This document shows, one piece after another, positions 47,994 through 64,000 of a stretch of 64,000 nt of DNA. The first letter of the stretch is position 1. Each line of letters opens with the position of its first letter. This DNA is from Candidatus Nitrosotenuis aquarius. Lineage in GTDB: Archaea; Thermoproteota; Nitrososphaeria; Nitrososphaerales; Nitrosopumilaceae. Made by a program: the position numbers and the translations under genes. The stretch is taken from positions 372,001 through 436,000 of the forward strand of contig NZ_CP024808.1 of NCBI RefSeq assembly GCF_002787055.1, given 5' to 3'. The notes under the pieces were generated by a model. That model did no database searches. It saw only the letters and a program-made list of their open reading frames with translations, and had not been told where the DNA came from.

Positions 47994-48067
47994 GCCAAGG
48001 TAGCTCAGCCTGGGAGAGCACTCCGCTGAAGACGGAGCCGTCGTGGATTCAAGTCCCACCCTTGGCA
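47994..48067 (+). tRNA. tRNA-Phe (anticodon GAA)
   Basis: A 74-base cloverleaf: acceptor GCCAAGG/CCTTGGC, D-stem GCTC/GAGC, anticodon stem CTCCG/CGGAG with loop CTGAAGA (anticodon GAA), discriminator A and no encoded CCA. All stems pair except the top of the T-stem: GTGGA/CCCAC leaves an A53-C61 mismatch where G-C is nearly universal. The T-loop TTCAAGT is normal. The tyrosine integrase gene starts 43 bases downstream, so this tRNA is the presumed attachment site of the integrated element. Confidence 0.95.
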
Positions 48068-48110
48068 CATTTCATTTTATTTAATACCCCGCCCAACGTA
48101 GTTATTTGCT

Positions 48111-49439
48111 ATGGTAAAGGCAAGGGCCGAAAACAAGCCCAGATTAACCACAGAGAGAAGATATGATGTTTACAATTATGAAAAAAGAATAGAATACGTT
48201 TTCAAACAAACCCAGAAAGAGTTTTCGCCTGAAAATCTATCATTAGTTCAAAAATATGATAAACTAATGGTTTCACTCTCTATGGCCAAGGCTACCAGAG
48301 AAAAACACCTAAAGACAATATTGAACCTAAATCGATTCTATGAAAACAAGAATTGGGAAAAAATCACCAAGGATGATGTTATGGATTTAGTCTACAAAAT
48401 AATGAAGACTTATTCCATAGATGGTCAGGAAACCAACACTACTTGGGACCATAAGAAGATCCTCAAAATTTTTGTTAGATGGATAAAGCTAGGCTCTAGA
48501 GAATTCAGTGAAGTCGGAGACCCCGAAGAGACCAAGCTTGTCAAACTCAAGAAGGTTAGAGATACCATATCTAGAGAAAATCTCCTAACTGAAAGCGATA
48601 GAACTAGACTACTCCATGTTGCAACACATCCAAGAGATAAAGCATTGATTGATGTGCAATTTGAGGCTGGTACAAGACCTGGAGAACTATTAAGTCTAAA
48701 GGTAAAACACGTCAAATTCGACAAATATGGAGCCATAATCAAAGTTGATGGAAAGACAGGGTCTAGAACAGTCAGACTAGTCAGATCTGCAGTGACGCTC
48801 AATGCTTGGCTAAATGTGCATCCTTTCAAAGATGATCCAGAAGCTCCATTTTGGCCAATACTTACAAAACAAAAATATGGTCAGGCATTATCATATTACT
48901 CAGCTAGACAGTTAGTTGCAAAAATATGTGAAAGGGCCTATTTAGAAAAACGAGTTTATCTCAATTTATTCAGACATTCTGAAGCAACAGAAACAGCCAA
49001 TTTTATGACTGAAGCTCAGATGAAGTTACGACATGGATGGACAAATGCATCAAAAATGCCAGCCAGATATGTTCACCTAGTTCAATCTGATGTTGACAAG
49101 GTCATCTTGGAGAGATACGGACTAAAAAATAATGAAAAACCAGATCTAAAGGTACCAAAGAAATGCCCATTTTGTGATCAAATGAACAGTCCAGATGTAG
49201 ACAGATGTGAAAAGTGCCTCAAACCACTTGACCTACAGGCAGCAATGGAAAAAGACGAAGAACAGGAATTACAAAAGGACGAACTGACTAGACTAGGTCA
49301 AATAGTAGATAATCTGACTCATCAGAAAGAAGCCGAAGTACAGTTACAAAACGACCAGATTGCAAGACAGAATCAGATAATTGAAAACATGTTAAATGAA
49401 ATCAAAGAGATGAAAAAGGCACTATCAGAATCGCTTTAG
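48111..49439 (+). CDS. Tyrosine recombinase/integrase with C-terminal zinc ribbon
   Basis: A 442-aa integrase. An N-terminal SAM-like core-binding region spans to about residue 160. The catalytic domain has Arg in EAGTRPGELLSL (about 189), Lys in KTGSRTVRL, the box LFRHSEAT, a second LRHGW, and the nucleophile Tyr in ARYVHL (about 319). The first His of the usual HxLRH box is replaced by Asn (NLFRH). After the catalytic domain come CPFC...CEKC, a zinc ribbon, and a coiled coil to the end. It ends 15 bases inside the convergent 49425 gene. Confidence 0.93.
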   Translation: MVKARAENKPRLTTERRYDVYNYEKRIEYVFKQTQKEFSPENLSLVQKYDKLMVSLSMAKATREKHLKTILNLNRFYENKNWEKITKDDVMDLVYKIMKTYSIDGQETNTTWDHKKILKIFVRWIKLGSREFSEVGDPEETKLVKLKKVRDTISRENLLTESDRTRLLHVATHPRDKALIDVQFEAGTRPGELLSLKVKHVKFDKYGAIIKVDGKTGSRTVRLVRSAVTLNAWLNVHPFKDDPEAPFWPILTKQKYGQALSYYSARQLVAKICERAYLEKRVYLNLFRHSEATETANFMTEAQMKLRHGWTNASKMPARYVHLVQSDVDKVILERYGLKNNEKPDLKVPKKCPFCDQMNSPDVDRCEKCLKPLDLQAAMEKDEEQELQKDELTRLGQIVDNLTHQKEAEVQLQNDQIARQNQIIENMLNEIKEMKKALSESL

Positions 49440-52696: not shown

Positions 52697-52706
52697 TTTA
52701 CTTTGA

Positions 52707-52719
52707 TGATTTTACCAGT
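52707..52719 (+). promoter_or_regulatory. Cassette motif TGATTTTACCAGT, copy A
   Basis: Begins 54 bases before the ATG of the cupredoxin gene (52761) and lies just upstream of the TATA-like ATTTTTATT (about 52727-52735). Identical copies at 58778-58790 (reverse) and 60732-60744 precede two other cassette genes at the same distance. Confidence 0.6.
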
Positions 52720-52760
52720 TTGTTGTGGATTTTTATTCATCAAAGATCAAAATCACAACA

Positions 52761-53645
52761 ATGAAAACAATAGTACTAGGCTCCATTTTAGCAGTTTTTG
52801 CTTTCATGGTAGCTGTTCCAGCATTTGCAGATCACCCAACCACCGAAATAAGCGTACCAGTCGGCTCCTCAACACCAGGATGTGAGGAAACCAATGAATG
52901 CTATATCCCATCCGAAGTAACAGTTGACGTCGGCGGTGAAGTGATGTGGTCAAATGATGACAGTGCTTCACACACTGTAACAAGCGGAACTCCAAAGGAT
53001 GGTCCAGATGGAACCTTTGACAGCGGATTATTCCTCTCAGGTCAGACATTTTCCCATAAATTTGAGGAATCTGGTGAATTTCCCTACTTTTGCCTAGTGC
53101 ATCCATGGATGCAAGGCACGGTAATTGCTCAAGCATCAGAAGAAGAGCATGATGAAACGGCCGAGGAAGATCATGACGAATCAAATGATGATACATTTGA
53201 TGAAGGTACTGGCGCAACAGTAATGTCTCAGGATGGTTCCATTATGATTCGAATCAATTCTGACGTACCAACACGGGGGGAAGAAGCTGCAGTATCAGTA
53301 GAATTCACTGATGCTGAGAAAAATCCAGTCGAACACGTAAACTTTGAGATCACAGCAATGCAGAACGAAGAACAAGTTCTTGCAGAAACAAAACAACACG
53401 CAATGTCGGGAATCATGGAATTCACAACAGCTGCTCTAGGATCAGATAGTCCACTAGATGTCCAAGTCACAATTCTAGGAATAGGATTGCCAGATGATGA
53501 GGCAAACTGGACAGGTCCAAAGGGAGAAGCAGTATCTGCTTCAGTGGTTCCAGAATTTGGCCCACTTGCAATGATCATCTTGGCATCTGCCATAGTAAGC
53601 ATTGTTGCCATAACAGCACGATCTAAAGTAATTCCAAGACTTTAG
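52761..53645 (+). CDS. Plastocyanin-like cupredoxin with PEFG-CTERM tail
   Basis: A 294-aa surface copper protein. The ATG 52761 starts a clean signal peptide (MKTIVLGSILAVFAFMVAVP). Residues about 35-110 form a type I copper domain: His in SASHTVTSG, Cys-His-Met in YFCLVHPWMQG. An acidic linker follows (Glu/Asp/His rich), then an Ig-like module similar to those in other island proteins, and the sorting tail VVPEFGPLAMIILAS plus basic end. It probably handles electrons or copper at the cell surface. An upstream in-frame codon at 52725 is unlikely to be the start. Confidence 0.9.
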   Translation: MKTIVLGSILAVFAFMVAVPAFADHPTTEISVPVGSSTPGCEETNECYIPSEVTVDVGGEVMWSNDDSASHTVTSGTPKDGPDGTFDSGLFLSGQTFSHKFEESGEFPYFCLVHPWMQGTVIAQASEEEHDETAEEDHDESNDDTFDEGTGATVMSQDGSIMIRINSDVPTRGEEAAVSVEFTDAEKNPVEHVNFEITAMQNEEQVLAETKQHAMSGIMEFTTAALGSDSPLDVQVTILGIGLPDDEANWTGPKGEAVSASVVPEFGPLAMIILASAIVSIVAITARSKVIPRL

Positions 53646-53646
53646 A

Positions 53647-53673
53647 GTTTCTTTTCTTTTTTATTTTGACATG
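53647..53673 (+). terminator. Pyrimidine-rich terminator after the cupredoxin gene
   Basis: TTTCTTTTCTTTTTTATTTTG directly follows the stop. Archaeal termination commonly uses such T-runs without a hairpin. Confidence 0.45.
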
Positions 53674-53706
53674 TTGACATTCTAACTAATACGCATTCTG
53701 AAATAA

Positions 53707-54579
53707 TCAGGTCTTTTTCTTATCTGGACTGATAAGATCATGCTCGATCTGAACAGTGCAGTGATTGATGCCAAATTTTTCTTTCATGGTTTCGTTTATT
53801 CTTCGTAATAGACTGTTGGTTTGTGCAATAAATTCGGGCTGGATTTTGACATGTGCAGACATTGCAAATACGTTTGATGTTAGAGTCCAAATATGCAGAT
53901 CGTGAACCTCGGAGACACCTTCAAATGCCTCGATTTCATCTGAGACTGACTCTAGTTTAATCTCCCTTGGCGTTCCTTCCATGAATATGTGCATACATTC
54001 CTTACACAACAATATGCCAGACCGTATTATCAGTATGCCAATTCCTACACTTACTATTGGATCAATTATTGGATAATCAGTAAGGCTGATGAGTATTCCA
54101 CCCACGATCACACCGATGGAGGACAACATATCACCAATTACGTGGGTGTAGGATCCTTTGATGTTAAGATTCGAATGACTTTCTTTTTTGAGTACGAACA
54201 TCATTATCAAATTTGCTACAAATCCAGCTATTGCAAATCCAAGCAGTGTGTTTGTTTCTATTTCTTGAGGATCTAAGAATCGTTTGTATGACTCATAGAA
54301 GATAAAACCAGAAACAAGAATGAGTGTAATTCCGTTTATCAGTGCGGCCACTATTTCTACTCGGTGAAACCCAAATGAGAGCTTGGCAGAGTGCGGTCTT
54401 TTTGCAATCCTAAATGCAATCAGAGACACTCCAATTGCAGAAAAATCCAACATTACATGAAACGAGTCAGAAATTAAAGCAAGGCTGTTGCTCAGGATTC
54501 CCCCTACAACTTCCATCACAAAAACGGATATTGAAATTACAAAGACAAGCCAAAGTTTGTGTTCCGTGTGATTATGCAA
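53707..54579 (-). CDS. Cation diffusion facilitator (CDF) exporter
   Basis: A 290-aa proton-coupled divalent metal exporter with six helices. The transport-site pattern is His-x3-Asp in TM2 (DSFHVMLDF) and His-x3-Asp in TM5 (HVIGDMLSS), the HD-HD arrangement of zinc exporters. A C-terminal cytoplasmic ferredoxin-like domain (HDLHIWTLTSNVFAMSAHV in part) follows. The N-terminus HNHTEH is His-rich. TTG start overlaps the upstream gene by 8 nt, indicating coupling. Zinc is the likely substrate, though cobalt or others are possible. Confidence 0.92.
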   Translation of the reverse strand: MHNHTEHKLWLVFVISISVFVMEVVGGILSNSLALISDSFHVMLDFSAIGVSLIAFRIAKRPHSAKLSFGFHRVEIVAALINGITLILVSGFIFYESYKRFLDPQEIETNTLLGFAIAGFVANLIMMFVLKKESHSNLNIKGSYTHVIGDMLSSIGVIVGGILISLTDYPIIDPIVSVGIGILIIRSGILLCKECMHIFMEGTPREIKLESVSDEIEAFEGVSEVHDLHIWTLTSNVFAMSAHVKIQPEFIAQTNSLLRRINETMKEKFGINHCTVQIEHDLISPDKKKT

Positions 54580-56293
54580 TTAGTCGATTCCTCACAAAAG
54601 AGAATAAAGGAATCAGAGAAAAAACAGCTGCAAGCACAATCAAAGATAGTGGAAATTCAGGGGTGACAGAAATTGGAATCTCAACGTATTCGGAGCTTTT
54701 ATCAATATTTTCTATTCGCAGTGTGGCCTGGCCAACATTTGGCTCTGAAAACCTGAAATTGACAAAATCTCCCCCAGCCTGTGCAATTCCCGAGTGTCGA
54801 AATATTTCGTTGTTATTTTGAAGTACAACAAAATCATATTCTGCCTTTGGAATGGGCAACAGAGTTTCCTGGTCATATATCGTGATGATAAATTCAGATT
54901 CCTCCTGCGTGGTGAGATCTAACGGAATCCAAGTAAGATCAACAAAATACCGTCCATCTTCTGCAGTTCCAGGCTCATTTGTGGTACTAGACAATCGGAT
55001 TGGGAATGTCTGTGGGGGTTTTTCTATTGGTTTTACAACTGCAACAAAATCAGCATTTGCATATTGGTTGTCACCTATTTGTTTGATTGAAACTATGATT
55101 GGCCCAAGATCATCGGATGAGAATGTATAGCTTTCAGTATTTGTTTTTGTAGGTGAATTTGTAAGTCCAGTTGACTTTTTTCTGAATATTTCGTTTCCGT
55201 GTTGAGACAGTACAAAATCATATGTTGTACTTTTTGGCTTTTTGTCAGTAAACAATTCATTAAAATCTACATAAAAATCCACATTTTGGCCTGGATAAAT
55301 CACTGGAGGATCCCACGAGAGTCCAACCTGAAACTGTGCATTGCCAGTGGTCGCTTGCAATGGAAACTGGACATTCTTTGATGGCATGACTGTAAAACGC
55401 ATTTGATGCTCGTTTGTCTTGTCAGTCATTTCCAAGAGATCCTTTTGATTTATCACCAAATGCACTATTCGTGCCTCCTCTGAATAATCATCTATGGTTA
55501 CAGAGGATTCCTTTAAGGGAATGTCATTAAGTGTGGCGTCATATTTGGTCACAAGCATTTCTGCGAACGTTTTTGGTATGTGGATTTCTTGATGCACTAC
55601 ACTGGTTTGATTGATGTTCTGGTAGCTCCAATCAAACGGCATATCAAAACTTACCATGCTGTTTTTTGTATCAAATGCAAAATTATTGATTCGGTCATAG
55701 TATGATGTGACGCCTACAGCATACTTTTTCTGATCAATTCCAGTCACGGAATGACTTGTCTTTTCGGCTATGCTTATTGCCCCATTAAGATTAGGTGGTT
55801 CAGCAAGGAAGTTCTGATCAGAGTCTATTCCAATGATCTCTATGTGAAACTTGTACAATCCGCCTGAAGTAAATATTGGACCTTCCATTGCCAAGGATGA
55901 AAACATCTTTCTAGTCCAGCCCCCACTAGCAGATTCCTTATCGCCGTCAATTTTGAGTTGCCCAGAGTCTTTTGAGATTACTTTAATGTTGACATTCCCC
56001 AGATCATCGTGAAATGTTTCCTTAAAGATTTGCTTTCCGTCCTTTGTTAATTCCATCACAAACGTAACATGTTCTATTACAGCTTCCGTCTTTCCATCGG
56101 TTAGCTTGACTGTCAGATAACTTTCATTGTTTGTAGGATCAAAGACAGACGGCTGCACACCAACAAACAGAGTTGCATTTCTACCACCTACAGATACAGG
56201 CAGATTCTCACCGCCTATACCGTGCCCAAATGCAGAATCTGCCACAGTCATAGAAACGACCAGCATGAGTACAATTCCTAGAATTATTTTCAA
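54572..56293 (-). CDS. Surface protein with three Ig-like modules and PEFG-CTERM tail
   Basis: A 573-aa exported protein. The frame is open from 56350, but TTG 56293 follows the stop of the upstream gene by 4 bases and opens directly into a signal peptide ending DSAFGHG. The mature part includes repeated beta-sandwich modules: an N-terminal one (EHVTFVMELTKDGKQIF), one at about 340-440 (TYDFVLSQHGNEIFR) and one at about 455-545 (EYDFVVLQNNNEIFR). The end VTPEFPLSLIVLAAVF plus basic residues is a sorting tail. The same module occurs in the 57319, 60788 and 52761 products. Confidence 0.75.
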   Translation of the reverse strand: MKIILGIVLMLVVSMTVADSAFGHGIGGENLPVSVGGRNATLFVGVQPSVFDPTNNESYLTVKLTDGKTEAVIEHVTFVMELTKDGKQIFKETFHDDLGNVNIKVISKDSGQLKIDGDKESASGGWTRKMFSSLAMEGPIFTSGGLYKFHIEIIGIDSDQNFLAEPPNLNGAISIAEKTSHSVTGIDQKKYAVGVTSYYDRINNFAFDTKNSMVSFDMPFDWSYQNINQTSVVHQEIHIPKTFAEMLVTKYDATLNDIPLKESSVTIDDYSEEARIVHLVINQKDLLEMTDKTNEHQMRFTVMPSKNVQFPLQATTGNAQFQVGLSWDPPVIYPGQNVDFYVDFNELFTDKKPKSTTYDFVLSQHGNEIFRKKSTGLTNSPTKTNTESYTFSSDDLGPIIVSIKQIGDNQYANADFVAVVKPIEKPPQTFPIRLSSTTNEPGTAEDGRYFVDLTWIPLDLTTQEESEFIITIYDQETLLPIPKAEYDFVVLQNNNEIFRHSGIAQAGGDFVNFRFSEPNVGQATLRIENIDKSSEYVEIPISVTPEFPLSLIVLAAVFSLIPLFSFVRNRLIA

Positions 56294-56297
56294 GTTG

Positions 56298-56813
56298 TTA
56301 AAAATATGAAAACGAATCTGCAAATCTGTCTTGAATAGTGTCAGATACATTCAGGGTCATCTGCTCTAACGCTTTAGTAGTGGACTCCCTATCTACTATA
56401 CGGTATTTTTTCATCACGCCAGGTTCTGCAATCACAAGATTAACCTTGGAAAGATTAGATAATGTAATTGAGATAGTTGATGGGCTCTTTTTTATGTGAT
56501 CCAGGATTTCCGCAAATGTCGCATCACCATTCAAAAGAAAGGATAGGATTTTCTTGCTTGTCTCTTTACGCAAATGGATGAAAAGAAAATCCTTGGACTC
56601 ATCAGACGTAGACGCAAAATACCAATCCTGATTCTTTATTTTTCTTGATCTAATGATCCCCATCTTTTCCATCATTTTCAAATAATGACTTACGACGCCG
56701 TTTTTTAGACCCGAGCCATTCATTAGATCCGTAAACCTAGAAGCTGGTTTTTCCTCCAATATTGTGAGAAGATGATTCACCCTAGGATTATACTTGTAAT
56801 TTGGATATCTCAT
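56298..56813 (-). CDS. Tandem winged-helix regulator
   Basis: A 171-aa regulator with two winged-helix domains: the first at about residues 10-75 (RFTDLMNGSGLKNGVVSHYL), the second at about 85-150 (TFAEILDHIKKSPSTISITLSNL). No ligand domain or metal-binding cluster is evident. It lies in an operon with a membrane protein (3 bases upstream), the PEFG surface protein and the CDF exporter. It is a candidate regulator of the TGATTTTACCAGT sites. Confidence 0.82.
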   Translation of the reverse strand: MRYPNYKYNPRVNHLLTILEEKPASRFTDLMNGSGLKNGVVSHYLKMMEKMGIIRSRKIKNQDWYFASTSDESKDFLFIHLRKETSKKILSFLLNGDATFAEILDHIKKSPSTISITLSNLSKVNLVIAEPGVMKKYRIVDRESTTKALEQMTLNVSDTIQDRFADSFSYF

Positions 56814-56816
56814 GAC

Positions 56817-57200
56817 TTAATCAGACCTGAATATCCCAATGACAAAAAACGTCAACATTAGCAGTATTAGTGTATGGGATATTAATCCATCAAGACCAAC
56901 ATTGGATGGAACAAACGGAAAGACCATGTTCAAAAAAGAAAATGTCTCCGCTGCAGTCACGGCATAAAATGCGCACATCATCAAAAACAGCCTTGTGGTC
57001 TTGAATGATTTGTAAGTATACAGACCAATCACTGAGAGAAAGGTTCCAAGAGCTATGCTGATTATGTGAATTGCGGCATGGAGTCCATGACCTACTAAAA
57101 TATGAGGAATTGCAAAGGGTAGCGTCGCACCACAAATGCTAATTGACAGGATCACAAGCAGTCTAGATTTAGAGCGGGTTGTGGAGAACGTCCTTTGCAA
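56817..57200 (-). CDS. Four-helix membrane protein, operon leader
   Basis: A 127-aa membrane protein with four predicted helices, no known family. The frame continues up to TTG 57282 minus one codon (57281), but TTG 57200 is better: a TATA-like CTTTAATTAC lies 24-31 nt before it on the minus strand (57224-57231 region) and the longer N-terminus (FSCGFAQFCNF) is unlike a protein start. The core ATTTTACCA of the cassette motif lies upstream of that TATA. It heads an operon with the wHTH, surface and CDF genes. Confidence 0.65.
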   Translation of the reverse strand: MQRTFSTTRSKSRLLVILSISICGATLPFAIPHILVGHGLHAAIHIISIALGTFLSVIGLYTYKSFKTTRLFLMMCAFYAVTAAETFSFLNMVFPFVPSNVGLDGLISHTLILLMLTFFVIGIFRSD

Positions 57201-57237
57201 TTTGTGATCAATGAACTTGGCCCTGTAATTAAAGAAG

Positions 57238-57250
57238 TTGGTAAAATTGC
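57238..57250 (-). promoter_or_regulatory. Cassette motif, partial copy D
   Basis: On the minus strand GCAATTTTACCAA carries the 9-base core ATTTTACCA of the motif found intact at 52707, 58778 and 60732. It lies upstream of the TATA-like element of the 57200 gene, in the same orientation relative to its gene and about 5 bases closer to the start. Confidence 0.4.
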
Positions 57251-57318
57251 AAAACTGGGCAAAACCACAACTGAAAGTCAATTAGTCATTAAAATACGAG
57301 AATGACCTAACAAATTTT

Positions 57319-58239
57319 GTGCGTCTATTATTATTGATTTTCTTAATATCCACATCATTTGGGTATGCATTTGCAGAATCAAACTATGATGTTATAATTC
57401 CAAAAGGTGCTGGGAATCCGTCATATGATCCACAGTTCAAAAAAGACCTGTTTGCTGAAGAATGGTACATACCAACAAAGATTACAGTACTAGTCAACGA
57501 TACCATTACTTGGACAAATCAAGATACAGACAGACACACAGTTACCAGCGGACAGTCAAGCGGCAGGGCAGGTGGTGTGACTGGAACACCGGGGATTTTC
57601 TTTGGAATATTCGACAGTGGTCTTTTTGGACAAGGCGAGGTCTGGTCTTACAAGTTCATCAGGCCAGGAACATTTCCATATTTTTGCACAATTCATCCTT
57701 GGATGTATGGGGTGGTTGTAGTAGATGGCCCAATTCCACCATATTCACATAATGCTGCAGGATACGAGCTAAAACTTCCTGCAATGACGGTAAGTACAGA
57801 CAAGAAATACCATAACGGCTTGTATTGGGATCCAGTTGTGATAAAAACTGGGGAGCAGATACTCTTTACGCTTGATTTTTTCAAAATTGATGGTGCTACA
57901 AAACTACATGCTTTTGAATATGACTTTGTTCTAGTTCAAAACGGAAAAGAAATTCACCGCTCAAATGGGTTTTCTGAGGGCGGTAGCGATACAAAATATT
58001 TTGTGTTTACAGAACCAGGCCCACTAAAAATACGACTGGAGAACATGGGTAAAGACAAGTTCAGTGTATCTGAGTTCGATACTGTTGTTTATGGAAACAG
58101 TACAAAACTGAGTGCCGATGCCATAATATCCCAAAACAAGGGTGAGCCAATCATTTATCAGGTGAGTCTTTGGGTAATCTTGGCAGCACCTGCGATTTTA
58201 ATAATAGGCATAATTTGGACAGTGAAGAAGAAGCACTAG
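57319..58239 (+). CDS. Membrane-anchored cupredoxin with Ig-like module
   Basis: A 306-aa protein, GTG start, signal peptide to about residue 20. The type I copper domain (about 25-140) has His in TDRHTVTSG and Cys-His-Met in YFCTIHPWMYG, with an extended Gly-rich loop between them. A second Ig-like module follows (about 150-265; FEYDFVLVQNGKEIHR). The C-terminus is an ordinary transmembrane anchor (about 278-300) with Lys-Lys tail, not a sorting signal. It is divergent from the 57200 operon. Confidence 0.88.
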   Translation: MRLLLLIFLISTSFGYAFAESNYDVIIPKGAGNPSYDPQFKKDLFAEEWYIPTKITVLVNDTITWTNQDTDRHTVTSGQSSGRAGGVTGTPGIFFGIFDSGLFGQGEVWSYKFIRPGTFPYFCTIHPWMYGVVVVDGPIPPYSHNAAGYELKLPAMTVSTDKKYHNGLYWDPVVIKTGEQILFTLDFFKIDGATKLHAFEYDFVLVQNGKEIHRSNGFSEGGSDTKYFVFTEPGPLKIRLENMGKDKFSVSEFDTVVYGNSTKLSADAIISQNKGEPIIYQVSLWVILAAPAILIIGIIWTVKKKH

Positions 58240-58448
58240 ATTATCTTCTCTGATTCTGTTCTTAGTTTTTGCTTGTAAAATGAATTTCGTGGTACCTTTC
58301 TAAGCTTCATACCACAACATGGACAATACGTCCCATCCCAGTTTACAAACATCTCACATACTTGGCATCTTTTTTGTCCTGCGGCATATCTTCCAATACC
58401 TTTTGGCTTTATTGCTCGATAACTCTTGCAGATCTCCTTGCAGCTCAT
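58236..58448 (-). CDS. Small zinc-ribbon protein
   Basis: A 70-aa protein with nine cysteine-class positions: SCKEICKSY at the start, CQVCEMF and CPCCGMKLRK. The pattern of two CxxC pairs indicates zinc binding. Small proteins of this type are frequent in thaumarchaea. Convergent with the 57319 gene, overlapping by 4 nt, and 6 bases after the 58455 gene on the same strand. Confidence 0.75.
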   Translation of the reverse strand: MSCKEICKSYRAIKPKGIGRYAAGQKRCQVCEMFVNWDGTYCPCCGMKLRKVPRNSFYKQKLRTESEKII

Positions 58449-58454
58449 CTTCGC

Positions 58455-58736
58455 TTATTTCACAATCTCTGCAGTAGGCAATGCCTTTTGATAGAGAACT
58501 GTGACTTTGGTTCCAACCATTAGATCACAATTTTCAATTTTTTTCGAAGACATTACGGAATCATTTGTTTCGACGACACAAGAATTGTCTATTTTGCCAT
58601 TGATGGTGACTTCTTCGGTTATTTGTTCTCGTATCAGCGGTGCATCTTTGAACATGGAAAACGCAATGAATGCAACGACTGCAATTCCTGCAACAATAAA
58701 CAGAACAGTTAGATTTCGTTTTCCTTCAAAAGACAA
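58455..58736 (-). CDS. Small membrane-anchored protein with OB-like domain
   Basis: A 93-aa protein with a helix at about residues 8-26 and a small external beta-rich domain (EEVTINGKIDNSCVV, NCDLMVGTKVTVLYQ) with two cysteines. The shape is reminiscent of CcmE-like or other small OB domains but the haem-binding histidine is absent, so no family is assigned. TTG start at 58736; motif copy C begins 54 bases upstream. Confidence 0.6.
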   Translation of the reverse strand: MSFEGKRNLTVLFIVAGIAVVAFIAFSMFKDAPLIREQITEEVTINGKIDNSCVVETNDSVMSSKKIENCDLMVGTKVTVLYQKALPTAEIVK

Positions 58737-58777
58737 TATTGGACAGCAAGATGAACTGTTATTATGTCTTATAGATA

Positions 58778-58790
58778 ACTGGTAAAATCA
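58778..58790 (-). promoter_or_regulatory. Cassette motif TGATTTTACCAGT, copy C
   Basis: On the minus strand the 13 bases are identical to copies A and B. The first base is 54 bases before the start codon of the 58455-58736 gene, matching copy A (54) and close to copy B (56). An AT-rich TATA-like region (TCTATAAG, CATAATAAC) follows. Confidence 0.6.
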
Positions 58791-58844
58791 TAAAACAACA
58801 GATAACTAAATTACAGAAATATTTTGAATGTATCTTGAATTATT

Positions 58845-59534
58845 GTGGAATCAGAATGTGAAGTCAGAATTGTAAAATTTGCCCTAATCGGATTGTTTGT
58901 TGCATCAATTATCGGATTAGCCGTCTGGGAGATCAAATTCAACCCATACTCGGACATTAAAACAAGCGCTTCGGATTGGGCGGAAGTCAAATCTGGATTC
59001 GGTACGATTCGGCTGTATGAACAAAAACAGATTGGGGGTTTTTCAAGCATTAAAAATGATCTCACGTATGTAGATGGTTCTCTTGGCTTTCAAATATCAA
59101 AACCAAACCAACGGTGGGAATTTGATTCTAACATAGATGATGTGTTGGGCTCACAAACAGTCTCAAGTAAAAAATTTCTTGGCGGAATGTATGTGAAAAA
59201 AGTTGATGAAAAGGCCATATTCATCGCAGTCTTTGATTTGACACAATTTGACAACTTTGATCTAGATGCTTACGTACAATCACAGAAAGATGCGATAGCC
59301 AAATTTGATTCAAATATCATAATAGATGAAATATCACCGCAAAATAACTGGTCGATATTTGGCGCAGAAATCACACTCCAGAACAAAACAAGAACCTATG
59401 GTGAGCAGATCTTGGAAATACATAACAACAAACTATACATGCTTCAATATAGCGGTGATCCGCCATATCTCATGCTATCGCAAACAAGAGATGAGATCAG
59501 AGACATAATGGATTCATTCAGGCCACTAGGCTGA
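58845..59534 (+). CDS. Membrane-anchored extracytoplasmic protein, unknown
   Basis: A 229-aa protein with one N-terminal helix (about residues 12-30) and an external domain with PsbP-like features: SLGFQISKPNQRWEF near residue 75, and a later SQTRDEIRDIMDSFRP. PsbP/Mog1-type domains are a possible fold. GTG start. Followed 4 bases later by the SpoIIM-family gene, so cotranscribed. Confidence 0.6.
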   Translation: MESECEVRIVKFALIGLFVASIIGLAVWEIKFNPYSDIKTSASDWAEVKSGFGTIRLYEQKQIGGFSSIKNDLTYVDGSLGFQISKPNQRWEFDSNIDDVLGSQTVSSKKFLGGMYVKKVDEKAIFIAVFDLTQFDNFDLDAYVQSQKDAIAKFDSNIIIDEISPQNNWSIFGAEITLQNKTRTYGEQILEIHNNKLYMLQYSGDPPYLMLSQTRDEIRDIMDSFRPLG

Positions 59535-59538
59535 TAGT

Positions 59539-60096
59539 ATGCTAAAACGAAGAATAATTCTGTTTTTTGTCTTTTTGGTAGTATTTTCTGCAACATTTTC
59601 CATTGGGGCTACCGTTGATGTCCCAGAAGACGAGGCAAAGGCATTCTTGGAAGAATTTGAGAAAATGATTGCCGAAATACAAAACGAGAATTTTGGAGTG
59701 CAGATCTTTTTGCACAATGTTCAGCTAGCATTACCCATGTTCATTCCAGGGTTTGGCGTTGCATGGGGAATTTTTTCAGCATATTCGACAGGCTTTGCTT
59801 TTTCCGCATTATCCACCACAATAGATTCGCTTTTTGTAAAAATCCCACCGATTGCTATGATTTTCTCTACGCCATTTGGAATAATGGAGCTTGGCGCATA
59901 TGCACTTGCCATGTCACGTAGTTGCATTTTGATTGTACACATAATCAAAAAAATACCAATCAGACCTCAATGGAAGGTCATTCTCTACGAGATGGGAATT
60001 TTGATTGGATTATTGCTCGCAGGTGGGATCATTGAGGCATACATGATTGAAACATTTTCCGAATCAACACCAAAAATAAAGTGGGTGAGAGAATAA
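59539..60096 (+). CDS. SpoIIM/DUF95 family membrane protein
   Basis: A 185-aa protein with about five helices. The segments IFLHNVQLALPMFIPGFGV and FSTPFGIMELGAYALAMSRS match the stage II sporulation protein M family (DUF95), whose members in non-sporulating prokaryotes are of unknown, probably transport-related, function. Confidence 0.78.
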   Translation: MLKRRIILFFVFLVVFSATFSIGATVDVPEDEAKAFLEEFEKMIAEIQNENFGVQIFLHNVQLALPMFIPGFGVAWGIFSAYSTGFAFSALSTTIDSLFVKIPPIAMIFSTPFGIMELGAYALAMSRSCILIVHIIKKIPIRPQWKVILYEMGILIGLLLAGGIIEAYMIETFSESTPKIKWVRE

Positions 60097-60114
60097 CTAC
60101 AACAAAAGTGCAGG

Positions 60115-60672
60115 TTATTTTTTAGGCTCTACCTTTTCTGGATGGAATGTGGCTTCAATATCAACACCTTTTATCTTTCCTGCAATGTGCACTGTAGGGT
60201 GACCAGATTCACTTGGTGTGTATTCACCATGATACGCTCCCTTGTTTTTTGGGTCTTCTACCAAAGTAAGAAAGGTTTTTTGACCATTCAGCGTCACATC
60301 TACTTCGACATTCTTACTTAAACCAGATATTCCGTTTGTAATTTTTTTTGGTTTAGAGTTTTTCTTTGAATCATAATGATGATTTTTCTTTGATTTTTCA
60401 TCATGTGTTGATTTTTTGGCATTGGTCTTTTTATGATCGTCTTTGTGGCCGTCATCTTTGTGTTCTCCTTTACTGACGATTTTCTTTTCAGACATTGATG
60501 CTTTAGTAATTATTACTTCAATAGCATTGGATTTACCAGCTATTGGTGGCTCGTTTTTCCAACCCGCATCGATTTTGTAATCACCTACAATTTGTCCTTT
60601 GTGCGCATAAGCACTACCTAGCAGGCTGACAGATAGTATTGCCATTGTCAGTAATCCGAGTTTTTTATTCAT
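60115..60672 (-). CDS. Exported His/Lys-rich protein, likely metal binding
   Basis: A 185-aa exported protein, ATG start, signal peptide to about residue 23 (cleavage near SAYA). A central insert (about residues 64-110) is dominated by Lys, Asp and His (KGEHKDDGHKDDHKK, then NHHYDSKK), a probable metal chelator. On both sides lie halves of a beta-sandwich: DYKIDAGWKNEPPIAGKSNAIEV-type start and HGEYTPSESGHPTVHIAG end, as in exported copper-resistance or gas-transport accessory domains. It faces the 60788 gene across motif copy B. Confidence 0.72.
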   Translation of the reverse strand: MNKKLGLLTMAILSVSLLGSAYAHKGQIVGDYKIDAGWKNEPPIAGKSNAIEVIITKASMSEKKIVSKGEHKDDGHKDDHKKTNAKKSTHDEKSKKNHHYDSKKNSKPKKITNGISGLSKNVEVDVTLNGQKTFLTLVEDPKNKGAYHGEYTPSESGHPTVHIAGKIKGVDIEATFHPEKVEPKK

Positions 60673-60731
60673 TGTGAAAAGAATTCCAGCTGTTCTTAAA
60701 ATATTTCTGGTAGAGAGACCAAACCACTTTA

Positions 60732-60744
60732 TTGATTTTACCAG
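60732..60744 (+). promoter_or_regulatory. Cassette motif TGATTTTACCAGT, copy B
   Basis: Identical to copies A and C. It begins 56 bases before the ATG of the CFI-box protein gene (60788) and precedes the TATA-like AAGTATTAATAC (about 60754-60765). In the other direction it lies 60 bases upstream of the 60672 start, so it could influence both genes. Confidence 0.6.
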
Positions 60745-60787
60745 TATTGAATCTAAGTATTAATACATTACAAATACTTCTCATTCT

Positions 60788-61591
60788 ATGAAATTTTTAT
60801 TATTACTATTTTCAGTTTGTTTGTTGCCAGTTTTTGCACAAGAGATTCAGCAATTACCAACAGACAAAGGCACGTTACTTGTGGATATATCCACAGAACC
60901 TGCAAACCCAATAACTGATCAACAATCTAAATTAAAAATTGATTTCATAAATCCAGTAACAAAGAAAATACAGGAACATGTTGACTACAAGGTCACTGTT
61001 GTTAAAGACGAAAGCACAATTTTTGGACCTATTCCTTTAACCCACACGTCCACAGGCTCAGTTACTCTACCCGTGGTGTTCAGGGAAAACGGAGAACACA
61101 AAATCACCATAGAAATTGAGGGCATTCTGTTTAAACCACTTCCTACAGAGACAGTCACATTTACCAAGACGATTGGAATGGCTACTGCTCAAACCACAAA
61201 CGGGGCTAAAGATGGCGGCGGATGTTTGATTGCAACCGCTACTTTTGGAACAGAAATAGCACCACAAGTACAGCAGCTACGAGAACTTAGAGATGGTGTT
61301 TTGTATAACACAAGTATAGGAACTACATTTATGTCAGGATTCAATGAATTTTACTATTCATTCAGTCCCAGTGTAGCAGATTTAGAAAGACAAAACCCAT
61401 TATTTCGAGAAATAGTAAAGACTACAATAACACCAATGCTTTCCACGTTATCTATTCTGAACTATGTTGATATTGACTCTGAGCAGGAAATGCTAGGATA
61501 TGGAATCGGAATTCTATTATTCAATGTAGGAATTTACTTTGTTGCGCCAGCCATTGCAATTCTAAAAATAAGGCAAAAAATACAAAATTAG
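60788..61591 (+). CDS. Secreted Ig-like plus CFI-box C-terminal protein
   Basis: A 267-aa exported protein. Signal peptide residues 1-17. An Ig-like module (about 25-130; VDYKVTVVKDESTIF) resembles those of the other island surface proteins. A linker leads to GGGCLIATATFGTEIAPQV (about 142-160), the CFI-box motif with a single conserved cysteine followed by a helical domain; the CFI-box-CTERM family is found in surface proteins of bacteria and archaea. A final transmembrane helix (about 238-258) follows. Confidence 0.75.
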   Translation: MKFLLLLFSVCLLPVFAQEIQQLPTDKGTLLVDISTEPANPITDQQSKLKIDFINPVTKKIQEHVDYKVTVVKDESTIFGPIPLTHTSTGSVTLPVVFRENGEHKITIEIEGILFKPLPTETVTFTKTIGMATAQTTNGAKDGGGCLIATATFGTEIAPQVQQLRELRDGVLYNTSIGTTFMSGFNEFYYSFSPSVADLERQNPLFREIVKTTITPMLSTLSILNYVDIDSEQEMLGYGIGILLFNVGIYFVAPAIAILKIRQKIQN

Positions 61592-62657: not shown

Positions 62658-64000
62658 CTAGTGTTTGAATTTGAATTTTTTAACAAGTAAGGAATTTCCA
62701 AACACAGATGAATCACTTACTATCCACCCAAGTGCTGCAAGCGCTGGCGTCAGAACCAGTGATTGGGTCATCCAATATAGAATTCCTGCGGCTATTGGAA
62801 TGGTTATGGAATTGTAGGCAAATGAAATAGCTAAATTCTGCTTTATTTTTAGCAGTGAATATCTGCCTATTTTCAGAGCATAAAGAACATCATGCAAATC
62901 GTTCTTCATCAGTACGACGTGTCCTGCAGCCATCGCAACATCTGTTCCAGATCCCATTGCGATTCCAATGTTGGCTTGTGTTAATGCTGGCGCATCATTG
63001 ATTCCGTCACCAACCATGACAACTTTATTCCCTTGTTCCTGAAGGGCTCTTATTTGTCCTGATTTTTCAGCAGGGAGAACGTTTGCCAGAACTGTTGATA
63101 TGCCAAGCTTTTGGGCAACGAATTTTGCCGTTCTTTGGTTATCACCGCTTAAGAGTATCACATTTAATCCGAGATGTTTAATTTCATCTATTACATGCTT
63201 TGCGTTTTCTCTCACACTATCAGATACAGCTATTATGCCAGCTACATCATTCTCGATACATACCAAGACTACGGTTTTTCCCTCTGATTCAAGACTTTGT
63301 ATTTTCTTTTGAAATGATTCTGAAATTATGTTGTTTGCGTTTGGTTTTCCAACAAAGATTTTTCTTTGCTGATAGACACCAGTTATGCCATAACCTGACA
63401 ATGCAGAAAATTCAGAAACATCAAGATTTTGGGATTTCTGTTCTAAAGATTTTGATACTATGGCGTGCGCTATTGGATGTTCTGATTTTGACTCTATGGA
63501 AGATGCAATCTGTAGAACGGTTTTTTCATCATACGTATTGTTTGGAATAATGTCAGTAACTGTTGGTTTTCCTGTAGTAAGCGTGCCAGTTTTGTCAAAA
63601 ACTACTGTGTCTATTGTAGCAAGTTTCTCTAGATATTCCCCGCCTTTTAGCAAAACCCCTTGTCTTGCTGCCTTGTCTATTCCCAAAGATACCACCATAG
63701 GTGTAGCAATCCCCAATGCGCACGGACACGACACTACAAGAATAGTTGCAAACACAGTCAGAGAAAACGCATGATCCTGTCCTAGGGCAAGCCACAATAA
63801 CGCCGAGCCAGTCGCAATAACAAGCACGATTGGAATAAAATAGTGTGCAGCTCTGTCGGCTGTTCTCTGAATTGGTGCTCTTGAGCTTCTTGCCTTTTCT
63901 ACCATTTCTATAATGCTGGAAAGGACAGTATCGGTACCAACACTTGTTGCCCTGAATTTCAAATATCCATTTCTGTTAATTGTTGCGCCAATTACTTGAT
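62658..64000 (-). CDS. copA: Cu(I)-type P1B-ATPase, N-terminal part outside the window
   Basis: ATP-driven heavy-metal exporter. The visible 447 codons run off the window edge inside the actuator domain (QVIGATINRNGYLKFRATS). Present are the transmembrane metal motif CPCALGIATPM, the phosphorylated Asp in FDKTGTLTTGKP, SEHPIAHAI in the nucleotide domain, and GDGINDAPAL. The C-terminal helix pair has the usual length. Metal-binding domains, if any, lie beyond 64000. An internal TTG at 63962 is not a start. The copper specificity fits the CPC motif and the cupredoxins nearby. Confidence 0.95.
   Translation of the reverse strand, partial: QVIGATINRNGYLKFRATSVGTDTVLSSIIEMVEKARSSRAPIQRTADRAAHYFIPIVLVIATGSALLWLALGQDHAFSLTVFATILVVSCPCALGIATPMVVSLGIDKAARQGVLLKGGEYLEKLATIDTVVFDKTGTLTTGKPTVTDIIPNNTYDEKTVLQIASSIESKSEHPIAHAIVSKSLEQKSQNLDVSEFSALSGYGITGVYQQRKIFVGKPNANNIISESFQKKIQSLESEGKTVVLVCIENDVAGIIAVSDSVRENAKHVIDEIKHLGLNVILLSGDNQRTAKFVAQKLGISTVLANVLPAEKSGQIRALQEQGNKVVMVGDGINDAPALTQANIGIAMGSGTDVAMAAGHVVLMKNDLHDVLYALKIGRYSLLKIKQNLAISFAYNSITIPIAAGILYWMTQSLVLTPALAALGWIVSDSSVFGNSLLVKKFKFKH

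Follow-up and report, generated by a model that had tools for sequence, protein, structure and literature searches.

A bipartite promoter element of copper-type genes shared by marine and soil ammonia-oxidizing archaea, and a tandem winged-helix protein as its candidate regulator

Which signal lies behind an identical 13-base sequence, TGATTTTACCAGT, that stands before three genes of one metal-related cluster in Candidatus Nitrosotenuis aquarius, and which protein could read it? The window analysed here is a stretch of 64,000 nucleotides (contig NZ_CP024808.1, positions 372001-436000). A pattern search of this window located the exact 13-mer at 52707-52719 (+), 58778-58790 (−) and 60733-60745 (+); a preliminary description of the DNA had placed the first two correctly and the third at 60732-60744. 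From the first base of the 13-mer to the start codon there are 54 nt (ATG 52761), 54 nt (TTG 58736) and 55 nt (ATG 60788), so that the fixed distance described before stood for two copies and the third, given as 56, had to be corrected. As had been noticed, each copy is oriented toward its own gene and lies upstream of a TATA-like sequence.

The genome, a single contig of 1,697,207 bases, contains four exact and 15 one-mismatch copies of the 13-mer, compared with two for the reversed pattern used as control. The one-mismatch copies, all 15 of them, and the fourth exact copy fall within coding frames; the 13-mer is therefore not common at random positions of the genome. Three exact promoter copies inside 8 kb are far beyond chance, in agreement with the earlier claim. 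Only the 13-mer is common to these three copies, the flanking sequences diverging immediately outside it, which indicates that they are not a recently duplicated promoter block.

Judged from the alignment of related promoters, the 13-mer makes up the 3′ portion of a 19-base bipartite, non-palindromic promoter element, which adjoins the region of the TFB recognition element (BRE) and TATA on its upstream side. When aligned on TACCA, all sites of the window and of the close relatives G002, G005 and G009 have [G/C]TTT as a second box, which begins exactly 12 nt upstream of TACCA. The element of the window reads [GC]TTT-N8-TACCA[GA]T and is separated from the downstream TATA by a few bases; its general form is [G/C]TT[T/C]-N8-[T/A]ACCA[G/A]T. 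The preliminary description of a copper-type regulatory site was thus right as to its place, upstream of TATA in a set of copper-type genes, and too short as to its extent.

The three 13-mers belong to site A (52701-52719, +, CTTTGATGATTTTACCAGT), which starts 60 nt before the ATG at 52761 of a gene for a cupredoxin with a PEFG-CTERM anchor, site B (58778-58796, −, GTTTTATGATTTTACCAGT), upstream of the TM93-Zn70 genes and identical in G002, and site C (60727-60745, +, CTTTATTGATTTTACCAGT), upstream of a CFI-box gene, where G002 has CTTTATCGATCTTACCAGT. The alignment on TACCA with the close relatives led to two further, weaker sites. Site D (57237-57255, −, GTTTTGCAATTTTACCAAC) lies in the promoter of a four-gene operon, in an autoregulatory position; this operon encodes a small membrane protein (TM154), a winged helix-turn-helix protein (wHTH), a secreted protein (sec592) and a CDF transporter. 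Site E (60706-60724, −, GTTTGGTCTCTCTACCAGA; in G002 GTTTGGCATATCTACCAGA) is found upstream of the His185 gene, divergent from site C and back to back with it. The window sites start 52-61 nt before the start codons. A 9-base core before the gene at 57200 had already been noticed; ATTTTACCA is indeed present at 57239-57247 (−), but the 9-mer occurs seven times in the window and is weak by itself. The loose pattern STTTNNNNNNNNTACCAR gave 42 matches in the genome, five of them in this 8 kb, and 32 in G002, five of them within 2.2 kb.

A search of the whole genome with TTTNNNNNTYNTACCAR returned 33 matches versus 7 for the reversed control. Those upstream of a same-strand gene are only the window sites, three sites at a TM-wHTH locus on the core chromosome and one at a CopC/CopD-His206 locus. 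The core sites lie at contig positions 55045, before a His185 homologue; 55995, before the core TM-wHTH pair, whose wHTH paralogue is encoded at 55077-55571; 57261, before a gene for a 406-aa secreted protein; and 1381993, before His206, which is divergent from the gene of a CopC/CopD fusion protein. The cupredoxin and CFI-box genes of the window have homologues of 75% and 63% identity at this CopC/CopD locus (L160:9682-11458; contig about 1.382 Mb), and the window cluster, which we treat below as an island, by homology holds paralogues of core copper genes.

The sites recur in close relatives, whose wHTH proteins are 84% (G002), 74% (G005) and 49% (G009) identical to that of the window. G002 has variants of the element before TM154, His185 and at the CFI position, TM154 of G005 is preceded by GTTTTGTGATTTTACCAAT, and in G009 GTTTTATCATTGTACCAGT precedes the His185 homologue and GTTTTACATTCATACCAGT precedes TM154. 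The His206 site is conserved in G002, G003, G007, G011, G012 and others, and G015, which has no wHTH, has lost it, as expected. Upstream of the His206 homologue of several relatives (L301, L302, L303, L304, L305 and L306), two overlapping copies of the site form a 17-nt direct repeat (AAATTACCACTTTGGTAGTTCTACCACT), an arrangement that suggests cooperative or tandem binding. A similar, genus-conserved site, GTTTGAGACTTCTACCAACCTATATAATAATTC with variants (L162:7691, L166:7440, L172:7960, L220:7037), was also observed; it is flanked by a fumarase-type gene and, divergent from this, a gene for what may be a multicopper oxidase.

Beyond the genus, the pair of membrane-protein and wHTH genes is widespread in the class. 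The pattern [N]TT[TC]N8[TA]ACCA is found within 130 nt upstream in 40/44 examined promoters of such operons, usually 44-60 nt from the inferred start, while the reversed pattern was found in 0/44 and the opposite strand gave one match. In the column profile of these promoters TTGTTTGA-A-TT-TACCA stands out as a sharp footprint, with a TATA-like sequence after it and poorly conserved flanks. The element takes a different form in each clade: GTTTGATAGTTNTACCAAT in the island type of other genera, TTTTGATAGTTCTACCAGT in the core copy of this genus, GTTCGAGAATTGAACCAGT in the Nitrosopumilus type, including a genome of 1,645,259 bases, which is the size of N. maritimus SCM1, GTTCGTATGTTGTACCACT in Nitrosotalea sp. 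TS (L181), and ATTCTGGCTTTGTACCAAT in a genome of 2,527,938 bases, where the same gene pair bears the element and which, partly from its gene order, we presume to be N. viennensis. In genomes with two pairs, the site variant goes with the regulator locus and not with the genome, as seen in G054 (core CTTCGAAACATGAACCAGT versus island GTTTGATAGTTCTACCAAT) and G191 (core GTTCGATTGATGAACCAGT versus island ATTTGAGAGTTCTACCAAT).

The 1,645,259-base genome contains only four matches of TTCGNNNNNTGWACCANT, all within 14 kb at the TM-wHTH locus and one of them before TM-wHTH itself, with none for the control; in the sister genomes G099 and G134 an equivalent outlying site stands before a His206-like gene. 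His185/206/217, CopC/CopD and cupredoxin genes are the targets that recur in other genomes. As the strict family-wide pattern GTTTGNNNNTTNTACCAR is not above control in every genus, only orthologous positions were counted as evidence. By this comparison the element, which is indeed conserved before orthologous genes of other genomes and families, is a real and ancient cis-element of a putative copper-related regulon, common to families of ammonia-oxidizing archaea (AOA) of sea and soil. A purely mobile regulon, the preliminary description having spoken of a mobile one, was therefore rejected: a core-chromosome regulator pair (site 55995) and core target genes (site 1381993) carry the site in the same genome, and the site is common to AOA families.

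A related motif has been published. Reyes et al. (2020) found TTCSGSMTTTGWACYANT 12 times, at −35 to −70 from the start codons of N. viennensis genes induced by copper limitation (PMC7785015). One of its carriers, NVIE_014290, presumably shares a transcript with NVIE_014280, an ArsR gene beside copC/D (PMC7785015), and has been called a putative cation channel (PMC12448741). In that work the motif was regarded as terrestrial and the regulation of the cop genes "remains an open question" (PMC7785015); no name for a protein binding the motif was found in the papers of the searched library, which holds few subscription papers.

The element described here and the TTCSGSMTTTGWACYANT consensus can be aligned base by base. 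Both are 18-19 nt long with a WACYANT end, the TT[T/C] box lies equally far before TACCA, and the window sites fall within −35 to −70 of the start codon. The gene context is also alike, with a CopC/D cluster and an ArsR gene paired with a membrane-protein gene, as in TM154-wHTH of the window and in the core loci. In the island sites TTT-N8-TACCA[GA]T is retained, though not every TTCSGSMTTTGWACYANT position, as they have TTT for TTC and ATTTTACCAGT for TTTGWACYANT, whereas marine core forms such as TTCGAGAATTGAACCAGT fit closely and intermediates bridge both. Moreover, the published comparison covered terrestrial species and named no binder (PMC7785015), while the element occurs here in marine Nitrosopumilaceae, in part on an island that probably integrated. 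On this alignment, the element appears to be a diverged marine and island form of the published copper-limitation motif. The motif family in N. viennensis was already known; what the present analysis adds is that it also occurs in marine AOA and goes in a fixed manner with the pair of membrane-protein and wHTH genes. Copper excess, suggested earlier as the condition for testing expression, is probably wrong, as the published motif form belongs to copper-limitation genes (PMC7785015).

The wHTH at 56298-56813 (−), already proposed as binder, is the best candidate: its own operon bears a site, as do the operons of its relatives in the 40 loci mentioned above. AlphaFold2 predicted two winged helices (residues 10-67 and 72-139) and a C-terminal helix, with a mean predicted local distance difference test (pLDDT) score of 87.7. 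Both domains are HTH_5-type winged helices (PF01022, 2.1e-15, in two stretches) and singly resemble HlyU, CzrA and SmtB in the PDB, with template modelling scores of about 0.7-0.78 on the target; the closest PDB sequence matches are HlyU proteins, which are activators. In contrast to ArsR/SmtB proteins, the chain has two domains, its score for the metalloregulator family NF033788 is 39.5 bits versus a cut-off of 55, no Cys/His metal site is conserved, the presumed operator is asymmetric and non-palindromic, and a membrane protein is co-encoded. Among 24 wHTH sequences no invariant or near-invariant Cys was found, and the sole conserved His, H43, is situated in the region of the first recognition helix. 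Single-protein scans of genome and viral contig sets found no relatives of the window wHTH. The CopT/CopR regulator of Sulfolobus (SSO2652), compared by description only, is likewise an archaeal copper-gene regulator encoded beside copper genes, but unlike the window wHTH it goes with copA/copZ; N. viennensis encodes, next to copA2, a CopT homologue as a separate protein (PMC7785015).

TM154 (56817-57200, −; likely start TTG 57200, frame open from 57281) is a small protein with four transmembrane segments. In the alignment of TM154 proteins His and Glu residues are conserved in the membrane segments; no Pfam family was matched. In almost all examined AOA loci the gene adjoins that of the wHTH. 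As the wHTH has no conserved Cys/His metal site and TM154 has these His and Glu residues, we provisionally assign sensing to TM154 and regard it as a candidate copper sensor of the membrane.

Taken together, we consider it probable that the element is the operator of a copper-related AOA regulon, bound and activated by the tandem wHTH encoded with TM154. With two DNA-binding domains in one polypeptide, the wHTH would read the asymmetric two-box site, to which two unequal domains are well suited, and could help to recruit TFB/TBP or RNA polymerase; the fixed orientation upstream of TATA favours activation. It would thereby switch on, upon copper limitation, its own operon and the genes for cupredoxins, CopC/CopD and His-rich secreted proteins, with TM154 as likely sensor or co-regulator. 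The core chromosome would hold the ancestral system, and the island beside tRNA-Phe a diverged regulator together with near-identical sites of its own, A-E. A wider proposal, offered tentatively, is an AOA-wide membrane-coupled copper switch, in which the four-helix His/Glu membrane protein senses copper and controls the tandem winged-helix activator at an asymmetric site beside BRE, and in which islands carry diverged sensors, regulators and cognate sites as insulated sub-regulons. Copper shapes the niche of AOA, nitrifiers of global importance, since their ammonia monooxygenase and electron carriers are copper proteins. A motif tied in marine and soil species to one conserved gene pair provides a named, testable regulator candidate and makes the copper regulons of uncultured AOA predictable from genomes.

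Several observations weigh against activation by the tandem wHTH. The site is kept with no wHTH detected in G001 (98% complete), for which a matching 18-mer of the fumarase-gene site is also listed, in G004, G010 and G014 (70-83% complete), and in G011, where the contig ends at the expected place. With a profile trained on foreign sites only, island sites B and A rank first and third in the 64 kb (scores 16.4 and 14.5), but simulated 64-kb sequences reach 10.8-17.3, compared with 28.6 and 25.5 for the two best core sites; the profile alone does not separate the island sites from the simulated background. The island form is therefore diverged, and its assignment leans on position and gene context. 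Finally, copC/D of N. maritimus is lowered under copper limitation according to the literature; marine and soil species may thus differ in the sign of their response.

The same regulator could instead be a repressor in the manner of ArsR, released from the DNA upon a change in copper status. Its domains are closest to the ArsR family, which includes the repressors CzrA and SmtB, and a protein bound at TACCA, a few bases upstream of TATA, could block TFB. We nevertheless regard derepression as rather unlikely, given that the sites are asymmetric, uniformly face the regulated gene in each of the five window promoters and are placed upstream of TATA instead of over it or the start site, and that HlyU activators are the closest sequence matches. 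The position of TACCA, roughly that of BRE, would also fit a promoter class read by an alternative TFB, the wHTH gene being merely one of its members; AOA encode several TFBs (PMC12448741), and the G001 site without detectable wHTH agrees with this. However, the conserved GTTT/TTC box is located 12 nt upstream of the position of a BRE, genome-wide matches are restricted to a few copper-type promoters, the TM-wHTH operon is linked to the site almost universally, and inside one genome the variant of the site goes with the regulator locus, which makes an alternative TFB improbable.

The site retained in G001 would equally suit a different copper regulator, of CsoR, CopT or other ArsR type, with the tandem wHTH as its target, and in G005 TM154 has a CsoR-like gene immediately upstream of it (L058:4879-5136). 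Across the loci examined, though, only the wHTH recurs beside the sites and no other regulator gene does; known CsoR sites are palindromic, which counts against CsoR. To a different regulator we likewise give a low probability. Chance or a recent duplication of promoter sequence might explain the identical 13-mers and the resemblance of site B to the G005 TM154 promoter, which have about 30 bases in common (AGTTATCTGTTGTTTT-TGATTTTACCA), but the window copies are alike in the 13-mer only, and conservation before orthologous genes in other genomes and families refutes this explanation, which we consider negligible. Activation by the tandem wHTH stays our preferred reading.

The genes of the window cluster comprise, besides TM154 and wHTH, that of the secreted plastocyanin/azurin-like cupredoxin with PEFG-CTERM anchor (52761-53645, +; Pfam Copper-bind 3.4e-6, NCBIfam PEFG-CTERM) and, in the TM154-wHTH operon, those of sec592, a secreted or anchored 592-aa protein of uncertain start codon (54572-56350, −; an open reading frame), and of the CDF cation-efflux transporter, the last gene (53707-54579, −; TIGR01297 2e-82). 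Divergent from TM154, a second cupredoxin gene (57319-58239, +) has no element of its own in its orientation. The target of site B, TM93 (58455-58736, −), is by sequence a small protein with one transmembrane segment, from a widespread family of no use as a tracer, and is followed by Zn70 (58236-58448, −), a small zinc-ribbon-like protein. Site E precedes His185 (60115-60672, −), a His-rich secreted protein whose relatives in other AOA likewise carry the element, and site C precedes the CFI-box-CTERM protein (60788-61591, +; NF041770 3.4e-19). A copper-type P-type ATPase gene with an upstream ArsR-family gene closes the island side (window 62658-64000, on to 64966 in L077); no element copy was found upstream of this pair, and it is therefore probably under separate control.

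On the other side, the tRNA-Phe gene (47994-48068, +) is the likely integration site of the island and adjoins a gene assigned by sequence to a tyrosine-recombinase type integrase (48111-49439, +). No exact copy of at least 16 bases of the tRNA 3′ end, which would represent attR at the far boundary, was found within about 32 kb. Homologues of the integrase and/or of a rep-like 331-aa protein adjoin related copper clusters in other genera, namely in G231 (L072, where the integrase homologue is 51% identical) and G109 (L062). This recurrence suggests a recurrent mobile copper island, and mobility of the present island is plausible.

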